Below are positions 4,820 through 16,863 of a DNA stretch of 64,000 bases, in pieces. The notes under the pieces were generated by a model. That model ran no database searches, had not been told where the DNA came from, and saw nothing but the letters and a program-made list of their open reading frames with translations. Each line of letters opens with the position of its first letter. Position 1 is the first letter of the stretch. The DNA comes from Rhodoplanes sp. (lineage in GTDB: Bacteria; Pseudomonadota; Alphaproteobacteria; Rhizobiales; Xanthobacteraceae): the NCBI RefSeq assembly GCF_013377085.1, contig NZ_JACAAX010000001.1:62001-126000 (forward strand), written 5' to 3'. The position numbers were made by a program, and so were the translations under genes.

Positions 4820-5146
4820 CGCCGCCGGCGGTTCGTTTCGACCCTTTTCACGCGCCCCGCATTTACGACTCCGGCCGCGACGCCGTCGCGTCGAAGCCTC
4901 ACCCGCCATTGGCCGTTTCGTGCATCGTGACAGGTCCGCGACAGCGAGCGCGCTAACGGGTCGCGGCCGGATCGAGACAAAGTTTAAACGATGTTTCGCG
5001 TTTCTTTAGTAGTAAGTGTTATTTACGAGGGCTATCACCTGTTAAGGCTGGCTTAAAACCAAGGGGTGTAGGTCGGTGCTCGTGAAAAGCGAGTTCCGGC
5101 AAAGCGATATGTCGGAACCCGCATCGGCATCCAATAGGTGTGTTCC
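4820..5146. other. intergenic region between nitrate and chemotaxis operons
   Basis: No convincing gene is seen in these 327 bp. The stretch around 4980-5060 is richer in A/T than its surroundings and probably holds the promoter of the chemotaxis operon, but I could not pick out a clear sigma factor consensus. AGGTG at 5136-5140 is the likely ribosome binding site of the next gene. Confidence 0.4.
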
Positions 5147-5485
5147 GTGGACAATACCAACCAGGAGATCGGATTCGTCGATCTCGACGGCCTGCAGACG
5201 GTCCGCACCATAGGGGTCGCGCATGATCGGCTGAAAGCCGCCATAGCCGACCACGCTGCGGTTCGCATCGGGCTGGACGGCCTCGAAGAGTTCGATCTCA
5301 GCCTCGTTCAGCTCGTTCTCGCGGCGCGCCGCGGCGCGCTCGCGGCCGGCAAGTCGCTGATCCTCGCCGGCCCCGTTCGCGGGCCACTCTACGTCACTCT
5401 CGACCGGGCCGGGTTCCTCTCCCGCGACGCCGCCGATTCCCTCGGCGGCGCGACCTTCTGGCTGCAAGCATCGGGTGATCAATGA
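5147..5485 (+). CDS. STAS-domain protein at head of chemotaxis operon
   Basis: A 112-residue single-domain protein resembling STAS/anti-sigma-antagonist-like folds: alternating strands and helices with the pattern VRIGLDGLEEFDLSLVQLVLAARRGALA, where STAS proteins have the phosphorylatable Ser/Thr followed by a helix. It is not certain that the Ser in FDLSLVQL is phosphorylated. GTG at 5147 is preferred because AGGTG lies six bases upstream; an in-frame GTG at 5138 is the alternative. The gene overlaps cheY by 4 bp (ATGA), so the two are translationally coupled. STAS proteins heading chemotaxis operons occur in other proteobacteria, but their role there is poorly defined. Confidence 0.7.
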   Translation: MDNTNQEIGFVDLDGLQTVRTIGVAHDRLKAAIADHAAVRIGLDGLEEFDLSLVQLVLAARRGALAAGKSLILAGPVRGPLYVTLDRAGFLSRDAADSLGGATFWLQASGDQ

Positions 5486-5850
5486 GCAAGACCATCCTCA
5501 ACGTCGACGACTCCGCCAGTGTCCGCCAGATGGTGCAACTGACGCTGCAGGGCGCCGGTTACCGGGTGCTGCAGGCGAACGACGGCGCCGACGGGCTCTC
5601 CAAGGCCCAGGCGAGCGCGGTCGACATGGTCGTCACCGACCTCAACATGCCGGTGATGAACGGGCTCGCGCTGATCCGCGAGCTGCGCAAGCTGCCGGCC
5701 TATCGGGGCGTGCCGATCCTGTTCCTCACCACCGAATCCGACGCGGCGATGAAGAAGGAAGCCAAGGACGCGGGCGCGACAGGCTGGATCACCAAGCCGT
5801 TCCAGCAGGATCAGCTCGTCGCGGTGGTTCGCAAGGTGCTCGGAGCATGA
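5482..5850 (+). CDS. cheY: CheY single-domain response regulator
   Basis: A 122-residue receiver domain with the acidic pair Asp9/Asp10, the phosphoacceptor Asp53 (VVTDLNMPVMNG), a Thr in FLTTES and the conserved Lys in ITKPFQ, so all switch residues are present. It is expected to be phosphorylated by the adjacent CheA and to act on the flagellar switch or as a phosphate sink. It overlaps the STAS gene upstream and cheA downstream by 4 bp each (ATGA), indicating tight coupling. Confidence 0.94.
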   Translation: MSKTILNVDDSASVRQMVQLTLQGAGYRVLQANDGADGLSKAQASAVDMVVTDLNMPVMNGLALIRELRKLPAYRGVPILFLTTESDAAMKKEAKDAGATGWITKPFQQDQLVAVVRKVLGA

Positions 5851-7895
5851 TCACGATCGACGCCACAGACACGTTCCGGCAGGAAGCCCAGGAGCTGCTC
5901 GAGCAGCTCGAGCACGCGCTGCTCGATCTCGAGCACCGGCCCGCCGACGCCGACCTGATCGACGGCGCCTTCCGGGCGCTGCACACCATCAAGGGTTCGG
6001 GCGCGATGTTCGGCTTCGACCGGCTCGCCGCCTTCACGCATCACGTCGAGACGGCGTTCGACCTGGTCCGCAAGGGCCGGGTGAGTGCCAATGCCGAGCT
6101 GATCGCCCTGACGCTGAAGGCCAAGGACCAGATGCGCCGGCTGATCGAGGCCCCCGCCGAGGCCGACGACGCGGCCGGCGAGGCGATCCTGGCGAGCCTC
6201 CGCATCGTGCTCGACGCAGCCATGTCGCCCGGCGTCGCACCCGACGCGCCGTCTGCGCCGGCGCTCGCGACGGACGCCGCCGGGCAGTCCGGCGAGGCGA
6301 CCTGGCGGGTAAAATTCCGATTGCCCAAGGGCACCATGGCGACCGGCAGCAATCCGCTGCTGTTGATCGAGGATCTGCACGCCCTCGGCGGGGCCGTCGT
6401 GGTGGCGCAGACCGACCAGGTGCCGGCGATCGACGAGCTCGATCCGCTCGACTGCCATATCGGCTGGGAGGTGCATCTCACGACGGAGAAGCCGCGCGAT
6501 GCCATCGAGGAGGTGTTCATGTTCCTCCTCGACGACATGGAGCTGAGCATCGAGCGCCTCGACGCCGCCGCGTCGCCGACGACGCAAGCTGCCGCCGCGG
6601 CCACGCCGGTCGAGGCGACGAAGCCGGCTGCGTCCGTCCCGTCTCCGGCCGCTACGCCCTCCGGGGCGTCGCCGGCTCCCGCCCCGAGCCCCTCGGCGCC
6701 GGGCGCCACGGCGGCCCGGACGGGCGGCAGCATCCGGGTGCCGGCCGAGCGTCTCGACGAGCTGATGGACCGGGTCGGCGAACTGGTCATCGCTCAGTCG
6801 CGGCTCAAGCAGATCGCCACTGCCTCCCTGGATCCCCAGGTGAAGTCGGTGACCGAGGAGATCGAGCGGCTCGCCCGCGAGCTGCAGGACACCACCATGG
6901 GAGTCCGCATGATGCCGATCGGATCGCTGTTCGGGCGCTTCCGCCGGCTGGTGCACGACCTCTCGCGCGACCTCGGCAAGGACATCGAGCTGATCACCTC
7001 GGGCGAGGAGACCGAACTCGACAAGACCGTGATCGAGCGGCTCGCCGATCCGCTCGTCCATCTGATTCGCAATGCCGGCGACCACGGGCTGGAGCCGCCC
7101 GCGGGCCGCGCCGCCGCCGGCAAGCCGGCGACGGGCCGGATCACGCTCAGCGCGCGCCATGCCGGCGCCGCCGTGCTGATCACGGTCGGCGACGACGGCC
7201 GCGGCCTCGACCGTGCGAGGATCCAGGCGCGCGCCGAGGAGCAGGGCCTCGTCGCCGCCGGCGCCAAGCTCGCCGACGAGGAACTCTTCAAGGTCATCCT
7301 CGCCCCCGGCTTCTCGACCGCCCGCGAGGTGACCAACCTGTCCGGCCGCGGCGTCGGCATGGACGTGGTCAAGCGCACCATCGACGAGCTGCGCGGCTCG
7401 ATCGACGTGCGCAGCACGGCGGGTCACGGCTCCGAGGTGACGCTGCGGCTGCCGCTCACCCTCGCCATCATCGACGGACTTCTGGTGCGGGTCGGCAAGG
7501 GCCGCTACGTCATTCCGCTCGGCGCCGTCGAGGAGTGCGTCGAGCTGACGCCGACCGAGGATCTCCGCTCCAGGGGCCGCTGCTTCCTCAACATCCGCGG
7601 CGACCTGGTGCCCTATATCCGGCTGCGCGAGCAGTTCGCCTCGCAGGTGCCGGCCGATCCCTACCAGAAGGTCGTCATTGTGTCGGCGAACGGGATGCGC
7701 GTCGGCCTCGTCGTCGACCAGGTGATCGGCGACCACCAGACGGTCATCAAGTCGCTGTCGCGGCTGCATGCCGACATCGGGGTGTTCTCCGGAGCCACCA
7801 TCCTGGGCGACGGCAGCGTCGCCTTGATCCTCGACGTCCCGCAGCTCGTCGCCGACGGGCAGGCCGCCGAAGAGCGCCTGAAGGCCGCCGGCTGA
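5847..7895 (+). CDS. cheA: chemotaxis histidine kinase CheA
   Basis: A 682-residue kinase starting at the ATG that overlaps the cheY stop. The Hpt domain carries the phosphorylated histidine at position 46 (RALHTIKGSG). A P2-like segment follows (about 150-235), then a long Ala/Pro/Thr-rich linker, the P3 dimerisation helices (ERLDELMDRVGELVIAQSRL), the HATPase domain (N-box HLIRNAGDHGLE, G-box SGRGVGMDVVKR) and a C-terminal CheW-like P5 domain that couples to receptors. All catalytic elements look intact. It should phosphorylate the operon's CheY and CheB. The ORF is open upstream in this frame, but only the ATG at 5847 gives an Hpt domain at the N-terminus. Confidence 0.95.
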   Translation: MITIDATDTFRQEAQELLEQLEHALLDLEHRPADADLIDGAFRALHTIKGSGAMFGFDRLAAFTHHVETAFDLVRKGRVSANAELIALTLKAKDQMRRLIEAPAEADDAAGEAILASLRIVLDAAMSPGVAPDAPSAPALATDAAGQSGEATWRVKFRLPKGTMATGSNPLLLIEDLHALGGAVVVAQTDQVPAIDELDPLDCHIGWEVHLTTEKPRDAIEEVFMFLLDDMELSIERLDAAASPTTQAAAAATPVEATKPAASVPSPAATPSGASPAPAPSPSAPGATAARTGGSIRVPAERLDELMDRVGELVIAQSRLKQIATASLDPQVKSVTEEIERLARELQDTTMGVRMMPIGSLFGRFRRLVHDLSRDLGKDIELITSGEETELDKTVIERLADPLVHLIRNAGDHGLEPPAGRAAAGKPATGRITLSARHAGAAVLITVGDDGRGLDRARIQARAEEQGLVAAGAKLADEELFKVILAPGFSTAREVTNLSGRGVGMDVVKRTIDELRGSIDVRSTAGHGSEVTLRLPLTLAIIDGLLVRVGKGRYVIPLGAVEECVELTPTEDLRSRGRCFLNIRGDLVPYIRLREQFASQVPADPYQKVVIVSANGMRVGLVVDQVIGDHQTVIKSLSRLHADIGVFSGATILGDGSVALILDVPQLVADGQAAEERLKAAG

Positions 7896-7914: not shown

Positions 7915-8535
7915 ATGAGCGTATCGAACGCCACTGCACCGATCGGCACCGCATCGCGCGGCACGGACCCGAACGGGAGCGAATCGAACGGCGGCCGGCC
8001 CCTCGAGGTGCTGACCATGGACCTGCAGGGCCAGACCTTCGCGCTGGAAGCCACCCAGGTCCGCGAGATCCTCGATCTCGTCCCGGTCACCGAGGTGCCC
8101 GGCAGCGAGCCCTTCGTCAACGGACTCGTCAATGTCCGCGGCAAGGTCGTGCCGCTCGCCGACCTCCGACTCAAGTTCGGCATGGAGCAGGCGCCCGACA
8201 CCATCGACACCCGCATCGTGGTGATCGAGATCGACATCGACCGGGTGCCGACCGTGATCGGGATAAGGGCCGACAAGGTGCACGAGGTCACGACGCTCGA
8301 CGCCTCGGTGCTCGCCGAGGTGCCGCGCATCGGCACCCGCTGGCGCCAGGACTACATTCGCTTCATCGCCAAGCGCGGCGACGATTTCATTGTCGTTCCC
8401 GATCTCGCCCGCATTCTCGCGCCGGGCGCCGCCGAGCCGGCGGCCGACCCGTCCAAACCCGGCGCGACGCCCCCGACCACGTCCCACCGAAAGACCGCGA
8501 CCCTGGCGCTCGCCGGCCGCCCTGGAGAACTGTGA
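7915..8535 (+). CDS. cheW: CheW coupling protein (first copy)
   Basis: A 206-residue CheW-like protein: a ~30-residue polar N-terminal tail, the CheW double beta-barrel ([30 protein letters not shown]), and a ~35-residue Pro/Ala-rich C-terminal tail not usual in CheW. GAGAGGAG lies just upstream of the ATG. The stop codon overlaps the start of the following receptor gene by one base (TGATG). It differs clearly from the second cheW at 10290. I infer that each CheW serves the receptor encoded directly after it, or that both mix in one array. Confidence 0.93.
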
Positions 8536-10286
8536 TGCGTGTCACCATCAAGCTGAAGCTCGGCCTCGCCTTCGCGGTCGTCATCATTCTGTCCGCTGCC
8601 ACGGCTTGGCTCGGCATCTCGAATCTCGCCGCGCTCGACGCGACGCTGGGTCAGCTCGTCGACGGACCGATGAAGCGCCTCGAGGCGTCGCAGAAGCGCA
8701 GCCTCGACGTGATGACGTTGGTGCGTGCCGAGAAGAACCTCGTGCTGGCGACCGACAAGGATGCGAGCGCCCGCTACGAGGCCGAGATGCTCGACCTCCG
8801 CCAAACGATCCTAAAGCAGGTCGATGCCGACGAAGCCGCCTCGACGGCGGTGGGCAAGCCGATCTGGGCCGGCATCCGCACCTCGATCCAGCAGCTCGGC
8901 TCCGTGCACGACAGGATGCGCGATGCGATCCGCCGCGGCGACTCGGCCGAGGCGCGCGACCTCTCCGCCACCGCGGCGCGGCAGTCCGCCGCCGACGCGC
9001 AGAAGGGCCTCGAGCAGATCACCGGCATCCTGCGCAATTGGCTGCAGGAGGCCAAGCACGACGCCGAGCGCCAGTACGAGAGCGCCCGTACCCTGACGAT
9101 CGGCATGGTCCTGGGCTCGATCGCCTTCGCGCTCGCCATCGCGGTGTGGATGTCGATCAGCATCAGCCGCAGCCTCGCCCGCGCCGGCCTGCTCGCCCAG
9201 GCGGTGGCGGGAGGCGACCTCACCCAGACCATCGACAAGACCTCGAAGGACGAGATCGGCGACCTGATCGAGCACATCAACACCATGGTGCTGCGGCTGC
9301 GTCAGGTCGTGTCGGAGGCGCTGGGTGCTGCCGACAACGTGTCGGCGGGGAGCCAGGAGCTGTCGTCGAGCTCGGAGGAGCTGTCGCAGGGCGCGACCGA
9401 GCAGGCGGCGTCCGCCGAGGAAGCCTCCTCGTCGATGGAGGAGATGGCGTCGAACATCAAGCAGAACGCCGACAACGCCTCGCAGACCGAGAAGATCGCC
9501 CGGCAGTCCGCGGCGGATGCGGAGAAGAGCGGCGAGGCGGTGGGCCGTGCCGTCGAGGCGATGCGCACCATCGCCGAGAAGATCACCATCGTGCAGGAGA
9601 TCGCCCGGCAGACCGACCTCTTGGCCTTGAACGCGGCCGTCGAGGCGGCCCGGGCCGGCGAGCACGGCAGGGGGTTCGCCGTTGTCGCCTCGGAAGTCCG
9701 CAAGCTCGCCGAGCGCAGCCAGACGGCGGCGGCCGAGATCGGCACGGTGTCGTCGAAGACCGTGAAGGTCGCGCAGGAGGCCGGCGAGATGCTGACGCGC
9801 CTGGTGCCCGACATCCAGAAGACGGCCGAGCTGGTGTCGGAGATCAGCGCGGCCTGCCGTGAGCAGGACATCGGCGCCGATCAGATCAACCAGGCGATCC
9901 AGCAGCTCGACAAGGTGACGCAGCAGAACGCCAGCGCTTCGGAAGAGATGTCGGCGACCTCGGAGGAGCTGGCGGCGCAGGCCGAGCAGCTCCAGAGCAG
10001 CATCGCCTATTTCCGCACCGAGGACGGCGCCACCGCAGTCGTCGCGGCGCGGCGTCCGGCGCCGACGCGGGCCGGCTCGCAGGCCTCCGCCAAGTCGGCC
10101 GCAGCCATGGCCGAGCGCAGCGCGCGGCCGGTCGCCAAGCCGGCCACCGGCGGGGCCAACAAGCTGGTCGAGCAGGTGCGCGCGGCCTATGGCCAGGGCA
10201 AGGCGCCGGCGCGGACGGGCTACAAGCTCGACCTCTCGTCGGGCGGCCCCGACGCCCATGACGCGCAATTCGAGCGGGCGAGCTGA
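8535..10286 (+). CDS. methyl-accepting chemotaxis receptor 1 (4HB sensor, single HAMP)
   Basis: A 583-residue transmembrane receptor: TM1 about residues 8-28, a periplasmic four-helix-bundle (4HB_MCP-like) sensor to about 187, TM2 about 188-210, one HAMP segment, then the cytoplasmic coiled-coil with the conserved hairpin tip ([21 protein letters not shown], shortened: [18 protein letters not shown]) and a ~75-residue basic/Ala-rich tail ending QFERAS. No C-terminal NWETF-type pentapeptide for CheR/CheB is present. ATG at 8535 is chosen over the GTG at 8532 because the sister receptor starts with the same MRVTIKLKL. From 9296 to the stop the DNA is identical to the second receptor. Confidence 0.93.
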
Positions 10287-10287
10287 G
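9296..10287 (+). repeat. ~992 bp direct repeat, copy 1 (receptor signalling domain)
   Basis: This stretch matches 11719-12710 base for base wherever I compared it; the translated products agree in all frames, including the silent positions. It covers the whole kinase-control region of receptor 1 and ends one base after the stop codon. The bases on either side differ. The unit spacing is 2423 bp. Confidence 0.95.
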
Positions 10288-10289
10288 CC

Positions 10290-10817
10290 ATGGCGCAAGT
10301 GAGCAGTGCCGGCGAGACCTTTTACGTCACCATCGGGATCGGCCGGGAGGTGTTCGCGGTCCCGGTCGCGATGGTGCTCGAGATCCTCCCGATGCAGCCG
10401 CTGTTCCGCATCCCGGAAGCACCGGCGCATCTCGACGGGCTCATCGATGTCCGCGGTCGCGCCGTCGCGGTGATCGACTTGCGGACCCGGCTCCATCTGC
10501 CGCGGGTGGAGCCCGACGAGACCACCCGCATCGTCGTGCTCGACGTGCCGCTGCCCGGCCGCCGCCTCGCGCTCGGCCTCACGGCCGATCGCGTCTTTGA
10601 GGTTATGGCGCTCCACGACGGCAGCCTCGAGCCGCCGCCCGACATCGGCACGCCGTGGAATCACGATCACATCCGCGGGGTCGGGCGCCACGGCGACGGC
10701 TTCGTCGCGGTGCTCGACATTGTCCGCCTGTTCACTGCCGATCCGGCCGTCCTCACGGCGCAGCGCGCGCTGCCCGCGGGCGGCGACCATCTCCCGTCCG
10801 CCGCCGTCGCGGCCTGA
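10290..10817 (+). CDS. cheW: CheW coupling protein (second copy)
   Basis: A 175-residue CheW with the usual core ([37 protein letters not shown], and a late [18 protein letters not shown]). It starts 3 bp after the receptor 1 stop. It lacks the long tails of the first CheW and shares only family-level similarity with it, so unlike the receptor signalling domains these two genes have not been recently homogenised. Confidence 0.92.
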
Positions 10818-10840
10818 CGCCTCCTGCCAGGAATGCCCCG

Positions 10841-12709
10841 ATGCGTGTCACCATCAAGCTGAAGCTTGCGCTCGCCTTCGCGACCATCATCGTCCTGTCC
10901 GCCGTCACGGCCTGGCTCGGCATCTCGAATCTCGCGTCGCTCGACACCACGCTCAGGCGCTTGGTCGACGGGCCGGTCCAGCGCCTGCAGCTCTCGCTCG
11001 AGCTGAACAACAGCCTGCTGACCGTCGTGCGGGCCGAGAAGAACCTCATCACCTCGGCCGGCAAGGAGGAGTACGACCGCTTCGATACCGAGATGACCCG
11101 CGAGCGCCAGTCGCTGGCCGTGCGGCTCGAAAAGGGCGAGGAGACCGCGGCGGCGCAGCGCCGGCCACTGTGGGCGGCGGCGCGGGCCGCATTGCAGCAA
11201 CTCGTCGTGACGCAGGACAAGATCCGCGAGGCGGTGCGCCGCGGCGATCGTGAGGAGGCCCGGGAGCTCTCCGGCTCGGTGGCGCGCCAGCATGTCGGCG
11301 AGGTGCAGAAGAACCTCAAGGCGGTGCTGGAGGTCAATCAACGTCTGCTCGAGGAGGCCAAGAGCGACGCCGCGCAGCAATACGAGAGCGCCCGGATGCT
11401 GCTGCTCGGCCTGGTCGCTTTCGCCATGATATTCGCGGTCGCCGTCGCCGTGTGGATCGCCCTCGCCATCAGCCGCGGTCTCGGCCGCGCCGGCGCGCTC
11501 GCCCAGGCGGTCGCCATCGGCGATCTCGACCAGCAGATCGTGGTCAAGAGCAACGACGAGATCAAGGATCTGGTCGACTCGCTCAATCGCATGACGGCCA
11601 ACCTGCGCGTCACGGCGGGCGTCGCCGACACCATCGCCAATGGCGACCTCACCGTGAAGGTTACGCGCTTCTCCGACAAGGATACGCTCGGCATGTCGCT
11701 CGAGCGCATGGTGGAGAAGCTGCGTCAGGTCGTGTCGGAGGCGCTGGGTGCTGCCGACAACGTGTCGGCGGGGAGCCAGGAGCTGTCGTCGAGCTCGGAG
11801 GAGCTGTCGCAGGGCGCGACCGAGCAGGCGGCGTCCGCCGAGGAAGCCTCCTCGTCGATGGAGGAGATGGCGTCGAACATCAAGCAGAACGCCGACAACG
11901 CCTCGCAGACCGAGAAGATCGCCCGGCAGTCCGCGGCGGATGCGGAGAAGAGCGGCGAGGCGGTGGGCCGTGCCGTCGAGGCGATGCGCACCATCGCCGA
12001 GAAGATCACCATCGTGCAGGAGATCGCCCGGCAGACCGACCTCTTGGCCTTGAACGCGGCCGTCGAGGCGGCCCGGGCCGGCGAGCACGGCAGGGGGTTC
12101 GCCGTTGTCGCCTCGGAAGTCCGCAAGCTCGCCGAGCGCAGCCAGACGGCGGCGGCCGAGATCGGCACGGTGTCGTCGAAGACCGTGAAGGTCGCGCAGG
12201 AGGCCGGCGAGATGCTGACGCGCCTGGTGCCCGACATCCAGAAGACGGCCGAGCTGGTGTCGGAGATCAGCGCGGCCTGCCGTGAGCAGGACATCGGCGC
12301 CGATCAGATCAACCAGGCGATCCAGCAGCTCGACAAGGTGACGCAGCAGAACGCCAGCGCTTCGGAAGAGATGTCGGCGACCTCGGAGGAGCTGGCGGCG
12401 CAGGCCGAGCAGCTCCAGAGCAGCATCGCCTATTTCCGCACCGAGGACGGCGCCACCGCAGTCGTCGCGGCGCGGCGTCCGGCGCCGACGCGGGCCGGCT
12501 CGCAGGCCTCCGCCAAGTCGGCCGCAGCCATGGCCGAGCGCAGCGCGCGGCCGGTCGCCAAGCCGGCCACCGGCGGGGCCAACAAGCTGGTCGAGCAGGT
12601 GCGCGCGGCCTATGGCCAGGGCAAGGCGCCGGCGCGGACGGGCTACAAGCTCGACCTCTCGTCGGGCGGCCCCGACGCCCATGACGCGCAATTCGAGCGG
12701 GCGAGCTGA
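10841..12709 (+). CDS. methyl-accepting chemotaxis receptor 2 (4HB sensor, tandem HAMP)
   Basis: A 622-residue receptor built like receptor 1: MRVTIKLKL start, TM1, a 4HB periplasmic domain of similar length but diverged sequence, TM2 near residue 190-212, then two HAMP-like segments ([22 protein letters not shown], shortened: [15 protein letters not shown]; and [20 protein letters not shown]) where receptor 1 has one, which explains its ~39 extra residues. From 11719 onward it is identical in DNA to receptor 1. AGGA at 10829-10832 is the likely ribosome binding site for ATG 10841; the open frame upstream is a shadow of cheW. The two receptors therefore differ in what they sense but send the same output. 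Confidence 0.93.
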
Positions 12710-12710
12710 G
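11719..12710 (+). repeat. ~992 bp direct repeat, copy 2 (receptor signalling domain)
   Basis: This is the second copy of the block at 9296-10287 and covers the signalling domain of receptor 2. Identity begins abruptly after the second HAMP segment and stops one base after the stop codon. Confidence 0.95.
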
Positions 12711-12724
12711 GTGGGGTGGACGCC

Positions 12725-13639
12725 ATGACGGAGGCTCAACCCAGGACGTCGTCGGCCGAGCGGCAGGAGCCGCTTGCGCGGCCGGAGTCCTCCTGGGTCG
12801 ACAGCCATGACCGGCTCGGCGCCCGCGACTTCCAGCGGCTGGCGACGTTCATCCAGGACTACAGCGGCATCAAGGTGCCGCCCAGCAAGGCGACCATGGT
12901 CGAGGGGCGGCTGCGCAAGCGCGTCCGTGCCCTCGGCATGGCGAGCCTCGTCGAGTACTGCAACTATCTGTTCGCCCGCGACGGGCTCGCCGCCGAAGAG
13001 ATCCACCTGATCGACGTCGTCACCACCAACAAGACGGAATTCTTTCGCGAGCCGGAGCATTTCCGCACCCTCGCCGACGAGGTGCTGCCGCGCATCGCCG
13101 CCGAGCGCCGGGTCAGCTCGCACGCGCCGGTGAAGATCTGGAGCGCCGCGGCCTCGACCGGCGCCGAGGCCTACACGATCGCCATGGTGCTGGCCGAGCA
13201 GCGTCGGCGTCAGCCCGAGCTGGCCGGCGCCGTCTACGCGACCGACATCTGCACGGAGGTGCTCGGCACCGCCCAGGGCGGCATCTTCCCGGCCGAGATG
13301 ATCGCGCCGGTGCCGGCCGAGCTGAGGGCCCGCTACGTCATGCAGGCCAAGGATCGCGCCTCGCGGCTGGTGCGGATCGTTCCGGAGCTGCGCGCCATGG
13401 TCCGGTTCGGCCGTCTCAACCTGATGGACCAGAGCTATCCGATCGACCGCGACATGGACGTCGTCTTCTGCCGCAACGTGCTCATCTATTTCGACAAGCC
13501 TACCCAGCTCGCGGTGCTGCGCCGGCTCTGCGATCATCTCCGCCCCGGCGGCTGGTTGTTTCTCGGCCATTCCGAGACGCTGTCCGGATTCGAGCTGCCG
13601 GTCCGCACCGCCGGCACCGCAGTCTTTCGCCGGAGCTGA
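12725..13639 (+). CDS. cheR: CheR chemotaxis protein methyltransferase
   Basis: A 304-residue S-adenosylmethionine-dependent methyltransferase that methylates receptor glutamates. It shows the helical N-terminal domain ([15 protein letters not shown]), [12 protein letters not shown], the SAM-binding region ([20 protein letters not shown]; most family members have GEEPYS where this has GAEAYT) and [19 protein letters not shown] at 12725 is preferred because GAGGTGGGG lies about ten bases upstream; a GTG at 12716 would sit on top of that site. It starts 16 bp after receptor 2 and ends 2 bp before cheB. Confidence 0.94.
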
Positions 13640-13641
13640 CC

Positions 13642-14733
13642 ATGGCGGCGCCGATCCGGGTCTTGATCATCGACGACTCCGCATCGGTGCGGCAGACGCT
13701 CGCCGGGATCCTCGGCGCCGATCCCGACATCACGGTGATCGGCACGGCGTCCGATCCGTTCGTCGCGGCACGCCGCATCCAGGCCGAGCTGCCCGACGTC
13801 ATCACGCTCGACGTCGAGATGCCGCACATGGACGGCATTACGTTCCTGCGCAAGCTGATGAGCCAGCGGCCGTTGCCCGTGGTGATGTGCTCGTCGCTCG
13901 CCGAGGAGGGGTCCGAGACGCTGATGCAGGCGCTCGAGGCCGGCGCCGTCGACGTGATCCTCAAGCCGCGGCTCGGGGTGACGCAGTTCCTGATCGAGTC
14001 GCAGGTGCGCATCTGCGACGCCGTCAAGGCCGCGGCGGGGGCTCGCCTGCATTGCCTGCCGCGCCGGGCCCGTGGTCCGGGGGGCATCGCGACGCCGGCT
14101 AAGAAGCTGACGGCCGACGTGATGCTGGCGGCGCCTTCGGCCGGCCATGCGATGGCGCGGACCACCGAGACCATCGTGTGCATCGGCGCCTCGACCGGCG
14201 GTACCGAGTCGCTGCGGGCGCTGCTCGAGGTGCTGCCGGCGGATTCGCCGCCTATCCTGATCGTCCAGCACATGCCGGAGAAGTTCACGGCCGCCTTCGC
14301 GAAGCGGCTCGACGGCCTGTGCGCCGTCGAGGTGAAGGAGGCCGCCGACGGCGACACCGCGTTGCGCGGGCGCGTGCTGATCGCGCCCGGCGATCGCCAC
14401 ATGCTGCTGCAGCGCAGCGGCGCGCGCTATTACGTCAGCGTCAAGGACGGCCCGCTGGTGTCGCGCCATCGGCCCTCGGTCGACGTGCTGTTCCGCTCGG
14501 CGGCGCGCTTCGCCGGGGCGAACGCGCTCGGCATCATCATGACGGGCATGGGCGACGACGGCGCCCGCGGACTCCTGGAGATGAAGCAGGCCGGCGCCCA
14601 CACGGTGGCCCAGGACGAGGCGACCTCGGTCGTCTTCGGCATGCCCAAGGAGGCGATCGCCCTCGGCGCCGTCGACCGCGTGCTGCCGCTCGGATCGCTG
14701 GCCGGCGCGGTCCTGCGCGCCGGATCGGCATAG
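13642..14733 (+). CDS. cheB: CheB protein-glutamate methylesterase/response regulator
   Basis: A 363-residue two-domain enzyme. The receiver domain has Asp11/Asp12 and the phosphoacceptor Asp57 ([12 protein letters not shown]). After a basic linker the methylesterase domain carries the Ser-His-Asp triad: Ser in [11 protein letters not shown], His in VQHMPEKFT and Asp in GMGDDGARG. All catalytic residues are present. It removes methyl groups or deamidates receptor glutamines when activated by CheA. It is the last gene of the rightward operon and is followed by a double-hairpin repeat. Confidence 0.95.
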
Positions 14734-14895: not shown

Positions 14896-16656
14896 TCAGA
14901 ACAGCATGTCGTCGAGGCTCGCTTCGGCCATCGCCGGCGCGGCGGCGGCGATCGGCGGAGCGAGGGTCGTGGCGAGGCCGCGCGGGGCCGCGCGGGCATG
15001 GACGTCGCGCTCGCGCGCCATGGTGTAGTGGGCGGCGAGCTGCGCGAACAGCGCGTCCGCGGCCTCTCCCGTCGGGATCGATCGGGCTGGCGCGGCGGCG
15101 GCGACCGCCGCAAAGGCGGCCGCGGCGTGCCGGATCGCGGCTGCGATGGTCTCGGCCCGGGCGAGTCCGGCGGCGGTCTCGTCGAGCACCGACACCACGG
15201 CGGCGCCGTCGCGGGCGAGTGCCGCGAGCGCGGCCCCGAGGGTCTCGGCGACGGCGTGCAGGCGGGCGATGGCGGTATCCATCGCCGTGATGACGGCGGC
15301 GATCTCGGCGAGCCGTGCCGCCTGGTTCTGTCCCGCCAACGCTTCGGCCGTCGCGACGATCGCCTGGACGTCCGCCGTCGCGGCGACCGCCTCGGTCGCT
15401 GTTCGGGCGGAGGACAGCGTCAGCTCCTCGGCGACGACGCCCAGCGGCTTGCCGACGGTACCGAGGCGGCTGCTCTTGAGCGTCGCGTTGACGCCCATGA
15501 TGCGGATGTCGGCCTCGACGGCCCGCACCGTGCCGATATGGTCGACCAGCCGGGTGGCGATCCGCAGCACCTCGGCGATGATCCCGTCGGCGCTTTCGCG
15601 CGCTGTGCGGAAGCCCTCGAACAACGCCCGCGCTTGGCTGACGTCCTCCTCCAGCTCGCACAGGAACGACTCGCCGCCATGCGCCGTCGAGCCGTAGACG
15701 GTCTGGCCGAGCCGGACGATCTCGCGGGCGTCGGCGGCGAGCCCGTCGAGGGTGCGGTGGACCGCGGCGATCTCGCGGGCGAGCTCGTCGGCGGCGTCCC
15801 CGAGCTGGGCCGCCTGCAGGGTGCAGCCGGCGGCCACGAGGGCGCGACGCTCCTCCGTGCCGAGATCCGCCCATGGGGCGTGCCGGTCGTCCGCCGCAGT
15901 CGCGCCGGCGAGATCGGCGAGCTGGCCGGCGCTCGCCTGGACGTGCTCCATGCGCTGGCGGGTGGCGTCGCCGACCTGCAGGGCCATGACGACGCGGCCG
16001 ACCCCGTCGGCGAGCTTGCGCGAGCGCGCGCCGACCGCGGCGGCGGCCTCGGCGGCGGCACGGGAGCGCGCCGTGATCAGGTCGAGGCTGTGCGCGAGCT
16101 GCCGCGGCACTTGTGCCATCGTCTCGGTGTGGCGGGTGGCGAACACGGTCTCGCCCGTGCTGGCGACCGCGAGATGCCGGGCGACCGCGACGAGATCGTC
16201 GCGGAAGTGCTGCAGATTGGTGTTGGTGATCGCCAGCGAGCGACCGATCCCGCCGATATAGTCCAGGAACTCGGTGCCGGCCGCGCCGATGCCGGAGGCG
16301 GTGATCCGGGCATTGATGGTCAGCACGTCGATGGTGCGGATTTCCTTGGCGATCTCGTCGATTCGCCGGCGCAGACCGGCGCTGACCCGGGTCAGGCGGT
16401 CGAGTGAGGCCCGCTCGTCGCGGCGGGCGCCGCCGAGCGCGGTCGCCTTTGCGCCGACCTGCGAGAGGTCCTCGGTGGCGCGGTGGAAGGCGTCGCCGCC
16501 CAGCTCGCCCTGAAGGCTGCCGAACAGGGATGTCAGGTGCTCCAGGAGATCGACCGAGGAGCCGAGCCGGACGCCCGTCTGCAGAAATGTCTCTTCGGCC
16601 AAGCCCGCTGCCGCACCGAGCGCTTCGGCAATGGGGAGGATGTCGTCGCGCACCAT
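14896..16656 (-). CDS. soluble receptor-like coiled-coil protein with two hairpin-like segments
   Basis: A 586-residue, mostly helical, Ala-rich protein with no membrane segment or signal peptide. Two stretches resemble the receptor hairpin tip in degenerate form: IDVLTINARITASGIGAAGT followed by EFLDYIGGIGRSLA, and IRIMGVNATLKSSRLGT followed by GKPLGVVAEELTLSS (compare LLALNAAIEAARAGE and [11 protein letters not shown]). It ends in SLDDMLF, an acidic-hydrophobic tail that recalls the CheY-binding tail of CheZ. ATG at 16656 is chosen; a TTG at 16749 would add 31 low-complexity residues, and neither has a strong ribosome site. It converges on cheB. I infer a cytoplasmic chemotaxis component that is either a degenerate receptor or a CheY-binding protein; no enzymatic role can be read from the sequence. 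Confidence 0.7.
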   Translation of the reverse strand: MVRDDILPIAEALGAAAGLAEETFLQTGVRLGSSVDLLEHLTSLFGSLQGELGGDAFHRATEDLSQVGAKATALGGARRDERASLDRLTRVSAGLRRRIDEIAKEIRTIDVLTINARITASGIGAAGTEFLDYIGGIGRSLAITNTNLQHFRDDLVAVARHLAVASTGETVFATRHTETMAQVPRQLAHSLDLITARSRAAAEAAAAVGARSRKLADGVGRVVMALQVGDATRQRMEHVQASAGQLADLAGATAADDRHAPWADLGTEERRALVAAGCTLQAAQLGDAADELAREIAAVHRTLDGLAADAREIVRLGQTVYGSTAHGGESFLCELEEDVSQARALFEGFRTARESADGIIAEVLRIATRLVDHIGTVRAVEADIRIMGVNATLKSSRLGTVGKPLGVVAEELTLSSARTATEAVAATADVQAIVATAEALAGQNQAARLAEIAAVITAMDTAIARLHAVAETLGAALAALARDGAAVVSVLDETAAGLARAETIAAAIRHAAAAFAAVAAAAPARSIPTGEAADALFAQLAAHYTMARERDVHARAAPRGLATTLAPPIAAAAPAMAEASLDDMLF

Positions 16657-16863
16657 CGGTCTCACTGGCTCGGCGAACGGTCGCCCGGCCGTGACCGACG
16701 ACGCGGAGCCGGTCGCCGCGGGGGCACGGCGAAGAGGCTCGCCCTCCAACTTGATCAGCTTCGGTTAAGTATCGGTTTAGACGGCCCCTCCGGCGACCGC
16801 AGGGGGAGGCGCGCCGCCTGAAGGGAGGTCTCCGGGTTTCCGCGTCGATCGGCCGCGTCGGCC

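Follow-up and report, generated by a model that had tools for sequence, protein, structure and literature searches.

Identical signalling modules in two adjacent chemoreceptors of an F8-like che operon of Rhodoplanes, and HAMP number among the receptors of related operons

The two receptors and their common module

The DNA studied here is a stretch of 64 kb from Rhodoplanes sp. (positions 62001-126000 of contig C1 in a 6.48 Mb draft genome of 89 contigs), which we call the window. It carries, on the plus strand, a chemotaxis operon with two chemoreceptor genes in tandem. Receptor 1 (MCP1; 8532..10286, 584 aa) has a 4HB_MCP_1 sensor, one HAMP and a signalling module, and its open reading frame (ORF) starts at a GTG at 8532, the next candidate being an ATG at 8535. 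Receptor 2 (MCP2; 10841..12709) also has a 4HB_MCP_1 sensor and a signalling module, with two HAMP units between them. The domains were assigned with Pfam, and the HAMP units were counted by their spacing (see below). CheW1 (7915..8535; PF01584) precedes receptor 1, and CheW2 (10290..10817; PF01584 and BLASTP) lies between the receptors.

We observed that positions 9296-10287 are repeated exactly at positions 11719-12710. Exact extension gave 992 bp, with no mismatch, at an offset of 2423 bp. The repeat begins at the end of the last HAMP and runs one base beyond the stop codon, so that in both receptors it contains the signalling domain (MCPsignal, PF00015), the tail and the stop codon. The identity included the silent sites, as 0 of 329 third positions differed between the two modules. 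All exact 40-base direct repeats in the window (only direct repeats were sought) had this same 2423-bp offset. A search of the organism's own genome revealed no third full-length copy of the module, the next match being 84% over 102 bp. Chance identity was considered and rejected, since copies that were truly 99% alike would match exactly over 992 bp with a probability of only about 5e-5. The duplication is real.

Upstream of the block the two receptors have diverged. Identity read at the fixed offset is low here and understates the kinship of the receptors, so that an alignment is needed. When properly aligned, the sensor and HAMP parts showed 67.6% DNA identity (as against 100% in the module), with 85% in the first 117 aligned bases, and 50% protein identity over 250 residues. 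CheW1 and CheW2 were 32% identical as proteins (BLASTP). These results bear out the original prediction, which had described a perfect duplication of about 992 bp in two adjacent chemoreceptor genes, with signalling domains identical down to the silent sites, and with sensors, HAMP segments and cheW genes that had diverged. The identity is thus limited to the module, as a tract with diverged flanks, which is the pattern expected of gene conversion.

The receptors also differ in their relays, in a way that the original prediction had overlooked. The alignment had a gap of exactly 39 residues, which corresponds to an extra HAMP unit (11588..11704) present in receptor 2 only, just upstream of the block. 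At a permissive Pfam cut-off (E up to 10), receptor 2 showed two HAMP stretches. A canonical HAMP is followed here by a divergent unit, which is the arrangement of a poly-HAMP receptor.

The remaining genes of the operon, all on the plus strand, are those for a STAS-domain protein (5138..5485; PF13466), which is the first in the operon, a CheY-like single-domain response regulator (5482..5850; PF00072), a CheA-like kinase (5850..7895; named from its sequence and place, its position being conserved in relatives), a CheR methyltransferase (12716..13639; PF01739, PF03705) and a CheB methylesterase (13642..14733; PF01339, PF00072). The order is therefore STAS, response regulator, CheA-like, CheW1, MCP1, CheW2, MCP2, CheR, CheB. 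As cheA, cheR, cheB, a CheY-like gene, two cheW genes and the receptors lie in one cluster, the operon matches the published F8 class in gene content and order, the two features compared, and we refer to it as F8-like.

Both receptors end, after a variable linker, in a conserved motif that reads DAQFERAS in the window (10260-10286 and 12683-12709). The commonest endings in relatives were DRDAEFQR (88) and DRDADFQR (72), duplicates included. This motif, which we take to differ from the usual pentapeptide, might serve to tether an adaptation enzyme. Next to cheB lies an ORF of 617 aa on the minus strand (14896-16749), for which Pfam gave no match at E 0.001. In one plasmid operon each of Methylosinus and Sphingomonas, cheB is likewise followed by a hypothetical protein of about this length, the likeness being one of size and place.

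Age of the receptors and origin of the identity

In the same-genus genomes G001 and G002, MCP1 and MCP2 occupy the positions that they have in the window, next to the same cheW genes, and a third receptor is present in addition. In the loci of same-genus relatives (L021 and L022) this third receptor, which was counted as three-HAMP, is situated between MCP2 and cheR, and the window is without it. In the sensor tree, receptor 1 of the three species (G000, G001 and G002) grouped together (100/99), as did receptor 3 of G001 and G002 (100/99) and receptor 2 of the three species (92/93, not starred). Since the sensors group by receptor across the three species, the receptors must be older than the species split and predate the identity of their modules. 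These are thus paralogues with 100% identical modules that are older than their identity, as gene conversion would have it.

In the sister species the module copies are unlike, being only 85-90% alike within either genome. At third positions the window pair was 100% identical, while the copies within G001 or G002 were 74-81% identical, those of G001 compared with G002 69-76%, and those of the window compared with both 68-71%. With 0 of 329 third positions differing in the window, against about 30% to the sister species, the event was recent on that scale. The two window modules also have 15 residues in common that the six G001 and G002 modules all lack. At the diagnostic sites, where both sister species separate receptor 1 from receptor 2, the window modules resembled receptor 2 in 21 cases and receptor 1 in 8. 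This suggests that receptor 1 probably received its module, with receptor 2 as the probable donor, as judged from the diagnostic sites.

We conclude that recent intragenomic gene conversion is, with high probability, the best explanation of the identical modules. The starting state would have been two old paralogous chemoreceptors in tandem in an F8-like che operon. One module (probably that of receptor 2) would then have been copied over the other by homologous recombination without crossover, recently and in this lineage. The left edge of the tract lies where the second HAMP unit of receptor 2 has no counterpart in receptor 1, and the right edge at the end of the gene, beyond which the two sequences are no longer homologous. 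As the edges of the tract coincide with the ends of homology, we infer that no targeting mechanism is needed. The original prediction, that conversion homogenises only the output module, is well supported as regards recent conversion (by the sensor tree, the sister modules and the diagnostic sites), but its 'only' calls for no special targeting. The outcome would be different sensors, with one HAMP as against two, on an identical module that docks with the same CheA/CheW machinery. The picture of two inputs feeding one invariant unit is incomplete. As the relays differ, the effects of the two inputs on the common module may not be the same.

We also looked for exchange in the wider survey, which comprised 151 loci (the window and duplicate records included), 139 of them with at least one module. 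The only identical module pair within an operon was that of the window. The next was 96.4% (L042, 704 aligned bases), and most were 81-92%. Third-position sites of receptors 1 and 2 in G001 and G002 were sorted by the pattern that they supported. In the module 12 sites grouped by receptor and 21 by genome, with 5 as noise, and in the sensor 30 grouped by receptor and 6 by genome, with 8 as noise (Fisher P 8e-5). For 27 disjoint genome pairs, the module sites were 673 by receptor, 223 by genome and 159 noise, and the sensor sites 1338, 124 and 105, respectively; 25 of the 27 pairs had a greater by-genome share in the module than in the sensor. A run test for exchange tracts, for which the window pair is uninformative, gave P <= 0.01 for 33 of 112 within-operon pairs (29 of 112 on rerun), as compared with 18 of 300 in an unmatched control of different-genome pairs. 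When divergence was matched, the counts were 25 of 89 within-operon pairs and 16 of 167 different-genome pairs, so that a moderate excess remained. These patterns in the sequences point to older, partial exchanges in the relatives, weaker than in the window.

Several observations weigh against gene conversion or limit the evidence for it. The donor sites are clustered, and they split 3:3 between the receptor 2 type and the receptor 3 type. By-genome sites of the module were only modestly above noise over the 27 genome pairs (223 as against 159). The window's own site patterns add little, because the zero in its module (0 by receptor, and 47 by genome against G001 or 44 against G002) follows from the identity itself. 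In its sensor the counts by receptor and by genome were 18 and 6 against G002, but 15 and 15 against G001, which favours neither pattern. In the module tree the copies of neither G001 nor G002 form a group by genome (2 and 3 changes, respectively), and one-change trees made up 20% (G001) and 21% (G002) of the bootstrap module trees. The module third-position identity between G001 and G002 overlaps the within-genome values, and the receptor 3 modules of the two species differ from each other no more than do the copies within G002. Taken with the module tree, these overlapping identities indicate that exchange outside the window's lineage was partial, and as the tree does not resolve G001 and G002, we claim concerted evolution strongly only for the window's lineage. 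Part of the run-test signal must be uneven conservation, as the matched control (16 of 167) indicates. Finally, the identity was read from a draft assembly of 89 contigs, in which a few real differences between the copies may have been collapsed.

This last point bears on the alternative that survives best, an assembly artefact in which two modules, alike but not the same, were merged into a single sequence that was then used twice. Short reads resolve exact repeats of about 1 kb poorly, the genome is a draft, and its 16S rRNA was not found in the assembly (by a search that failed in 5 of 14 control genomes as well). However, the window has no N, and the assembly kept apart two transposase-bearing stretches on contig C45 (L201 and L202; 842 bp, 99.88%, about 18 kb apart), retaining their single difference. 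Copies that are 85-90% alike, as in the sister species, would hardly collapse. Four related drafts have contig breaks in or near the module; in the three where the copies could be compared (G139, G235 and G411, but not G003), these were 83-90% alike. We therefore consider an artefact unlikely.

A recent duplication, in which a receptor was copied and one copy then gained a new sensor, would likewise yield identical modules, and sensors and HAMP numbers do swap partners on the tree. It would make receptor 2 (or 1) young. This is very unlikely, as G001 and G002 hold both receptors at the same places with the same flanking cheW genes, and both sensors group with their counterparts in these species.

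The two long exact direct repeats lie in the same frame, and the geometry put forward in the original prediction is correct, in that a crossover between them would leave receptor 1 and remove 2423 bp, with cheW2, the sensor of receptor 2 and one of the modules. That such a crossover is programmed or frequent, and works as a switch, is nevertheless highly improbable. Its product, a lone cheW, was seen as a natural alternative form in 0 of 105 complete operons (two cheW genes in 104 and three in 1), and none of the 21 complete operons with one receptor had fewer than two cheW genes. Those genes that Pfam identified between the copies and next to them are che genes, although no search for recombinases was made. 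Selection at the nucleotide level, through an overlapping antisense gene or RNA, can practically be dismissed, since long antisense ORFs do overlap the module but are common at 70% G+C, and a constraint on silent sites is rejected by the difference of about 30% at third positions to the modules of the sister species.

HAMP number in related operons

Less expected than the duplication was a regularity in the number of HAMP units, which we call the HAMP ladder. We counted the units by conserved Gly-Asp-Leu-like motifs, going backward from the module, with a spacing rule that was set after the sequences had been seen. The 208 receptors counted (15 without a recognised start were left out) fell into four spacing patterns only, corresponding to 1, 2, 3 and 4 units, with 39 residues for each added unit. 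For three receptors counted as three-HAMP, Pfam showed only 1, 2 and 2 stretches (E up to 10). An extended, module-anchored count added ten plasmid loci, hand-picked from 30 listed of 1006 records, and covered 241 receptors at 131 unique loci. Of these receptors 239 were countable, which left the two-receptor locus L031 and the single-receptor locus L103 not fully counted. The loci came from similarity searches and are not a random sample, many being from Bradyrhizobium. A class-wide protein search had matches in only 5 of 385 genomes, one of them that of the window, and thus added no breadth to the survey.

In 91 of the 94 fully counted loci with more than one receptor, all receptors differed in HAMP number, the sets being {1,2} at 79 loci, {1,2,3} at 11 and {1,2,3,4} at 1. 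The exceptions were L141 (2,1,1), L214 (2,1,1) and L106 (1,1); L214 and L106 each have one receptor with a linker of another kind. The commonest order was CheA-CheW-MCP-CheW-MCP-CheR-CheB with a one- and a two-HAMP receptor (59 loci, the window and duplicates included). At L140 (G065), four receptors, counted as having 1, 3, 4 and 2 HAMPs, were interspersed with cheW genes. When one locus was taken per genus label (all plasmid loci being one label), 15 of 17 were all-distinct, as compared with a shuffled mean of 8.3, and 0 of 20000 shuffles were as high.

HAMP number required 25 changes on the sensor tree, which comprised 79 receptors, and this is far more than the minimum of 3. The mean of the shuffles was 32.9 and 0 of 200 were as low as 25, so that the distribution is not random. 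It required 30 changes on the module tree and 14 on the short first-HAMP tree (shuffle means are given for the sensor tree only). The changes on the sensor and module trees indicate that sensors and modules swap partners while the ladder persists. Inheritance of the HAMP segments, with exchange of the sensors and modules, may account for much of the ladder.

It is possible, though we put it forward only tentatively and think it somewhat less probable than its opposite, that each receptor occupies one rung of a HAMP ladder, that the module is homogenised within the genome while sensors move between rungs, and that HAMP number is a selected addressing or coding device. Two published accounts could give such a ladder a function. 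Passages of PMC6628036 describe how receptors of different length segregate into independent arrays, with 35 angstroms per HAMP, and in a proposal set out in PMC3570549 two HAMP conformers can send opposite signals. If the ladder is true, HAMP number may set the height of a receptor and give each its own array on the same CheA/CheW plate, or each added unit may flip the sign of the signal. Homogenisation would then keep docking identical while height or sign differs, and in either case, sorting by height or a change of sign, it would be of use to combine an identical module with unequal relays.

The window offers a clean natural case in which an output module was overwritten between receptors while sensor and relay stayed apart, and it sets apart how three layers of a signalling protein evolve. 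Should the ladder hold, the operon is also a ready experiment on HAMP number, with the same module, the same operon, similar sensors and a relay that differs in steps of one unit, and how HAMP chains pass, invert or place signals would become directly testable.

Comparison with known systems

According to the parts of PMC8429497 that deal with F8 clusters, these have an extra cheW and 1-3 receptors in Bradyrhizobium diazoefficiens, Rhizobium leguminosarum and Agrobacterium fabacearum. With reference to che3 of B. diazoefficiens and Che2 of R. leguminosarum, described there as F8, the operon order is common to the window and the Bradyrhizobium loci surveyed. Those parts of the account mention neither near-identical modules nor a HAMP ladder, whereas the window has two receptors with an exact module pair. 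In the open-access literature, as far as titles and the openings of abstracts go, we found no account of a HAMP ladder, and none of homogenisation of bacterial chemoreceptor modules outside Campylobacter.

In Campylobacter jejuni, as passages of PMC9769880 and PMC6433261 describe, Tlp2, Tlp3 and Tlp4 resemble the window receptors in having identical signalling domains on diverged sensors in one genome (PMC9769880 for the domains on different sensors). The C-terminal halves of such tlp genes are large repeat regions open to homologous recombination, and genes of this kind bound an invertible element of about 92 kb (PMC9769880, PMC6433261). Identical modules on unlike sensors are thus already known. 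In contrast, the window receptors stand in tandem in one che operon, with cheW between them, and differ in HAMP number.

For the relay, the closest likeness is to poly-HAMP chains such as Aer2 of Pseudomonas aeruginosa (passages of PMC3570549), in which, as in receptor 2, a canonical HAMP with a DE motif is followed by divergent HAMP units that retain one glycine; the extra units counted here retain one glycine in the same manner. Aer2 is a soluble protein with three N-terminal HAMPs (PMC3570549). In the receptors described here, however, the HAMP chain comes after a sensor that lies between membrane helices, and the receptors of an operon differ in the length of this chain by steps of 39 residues.

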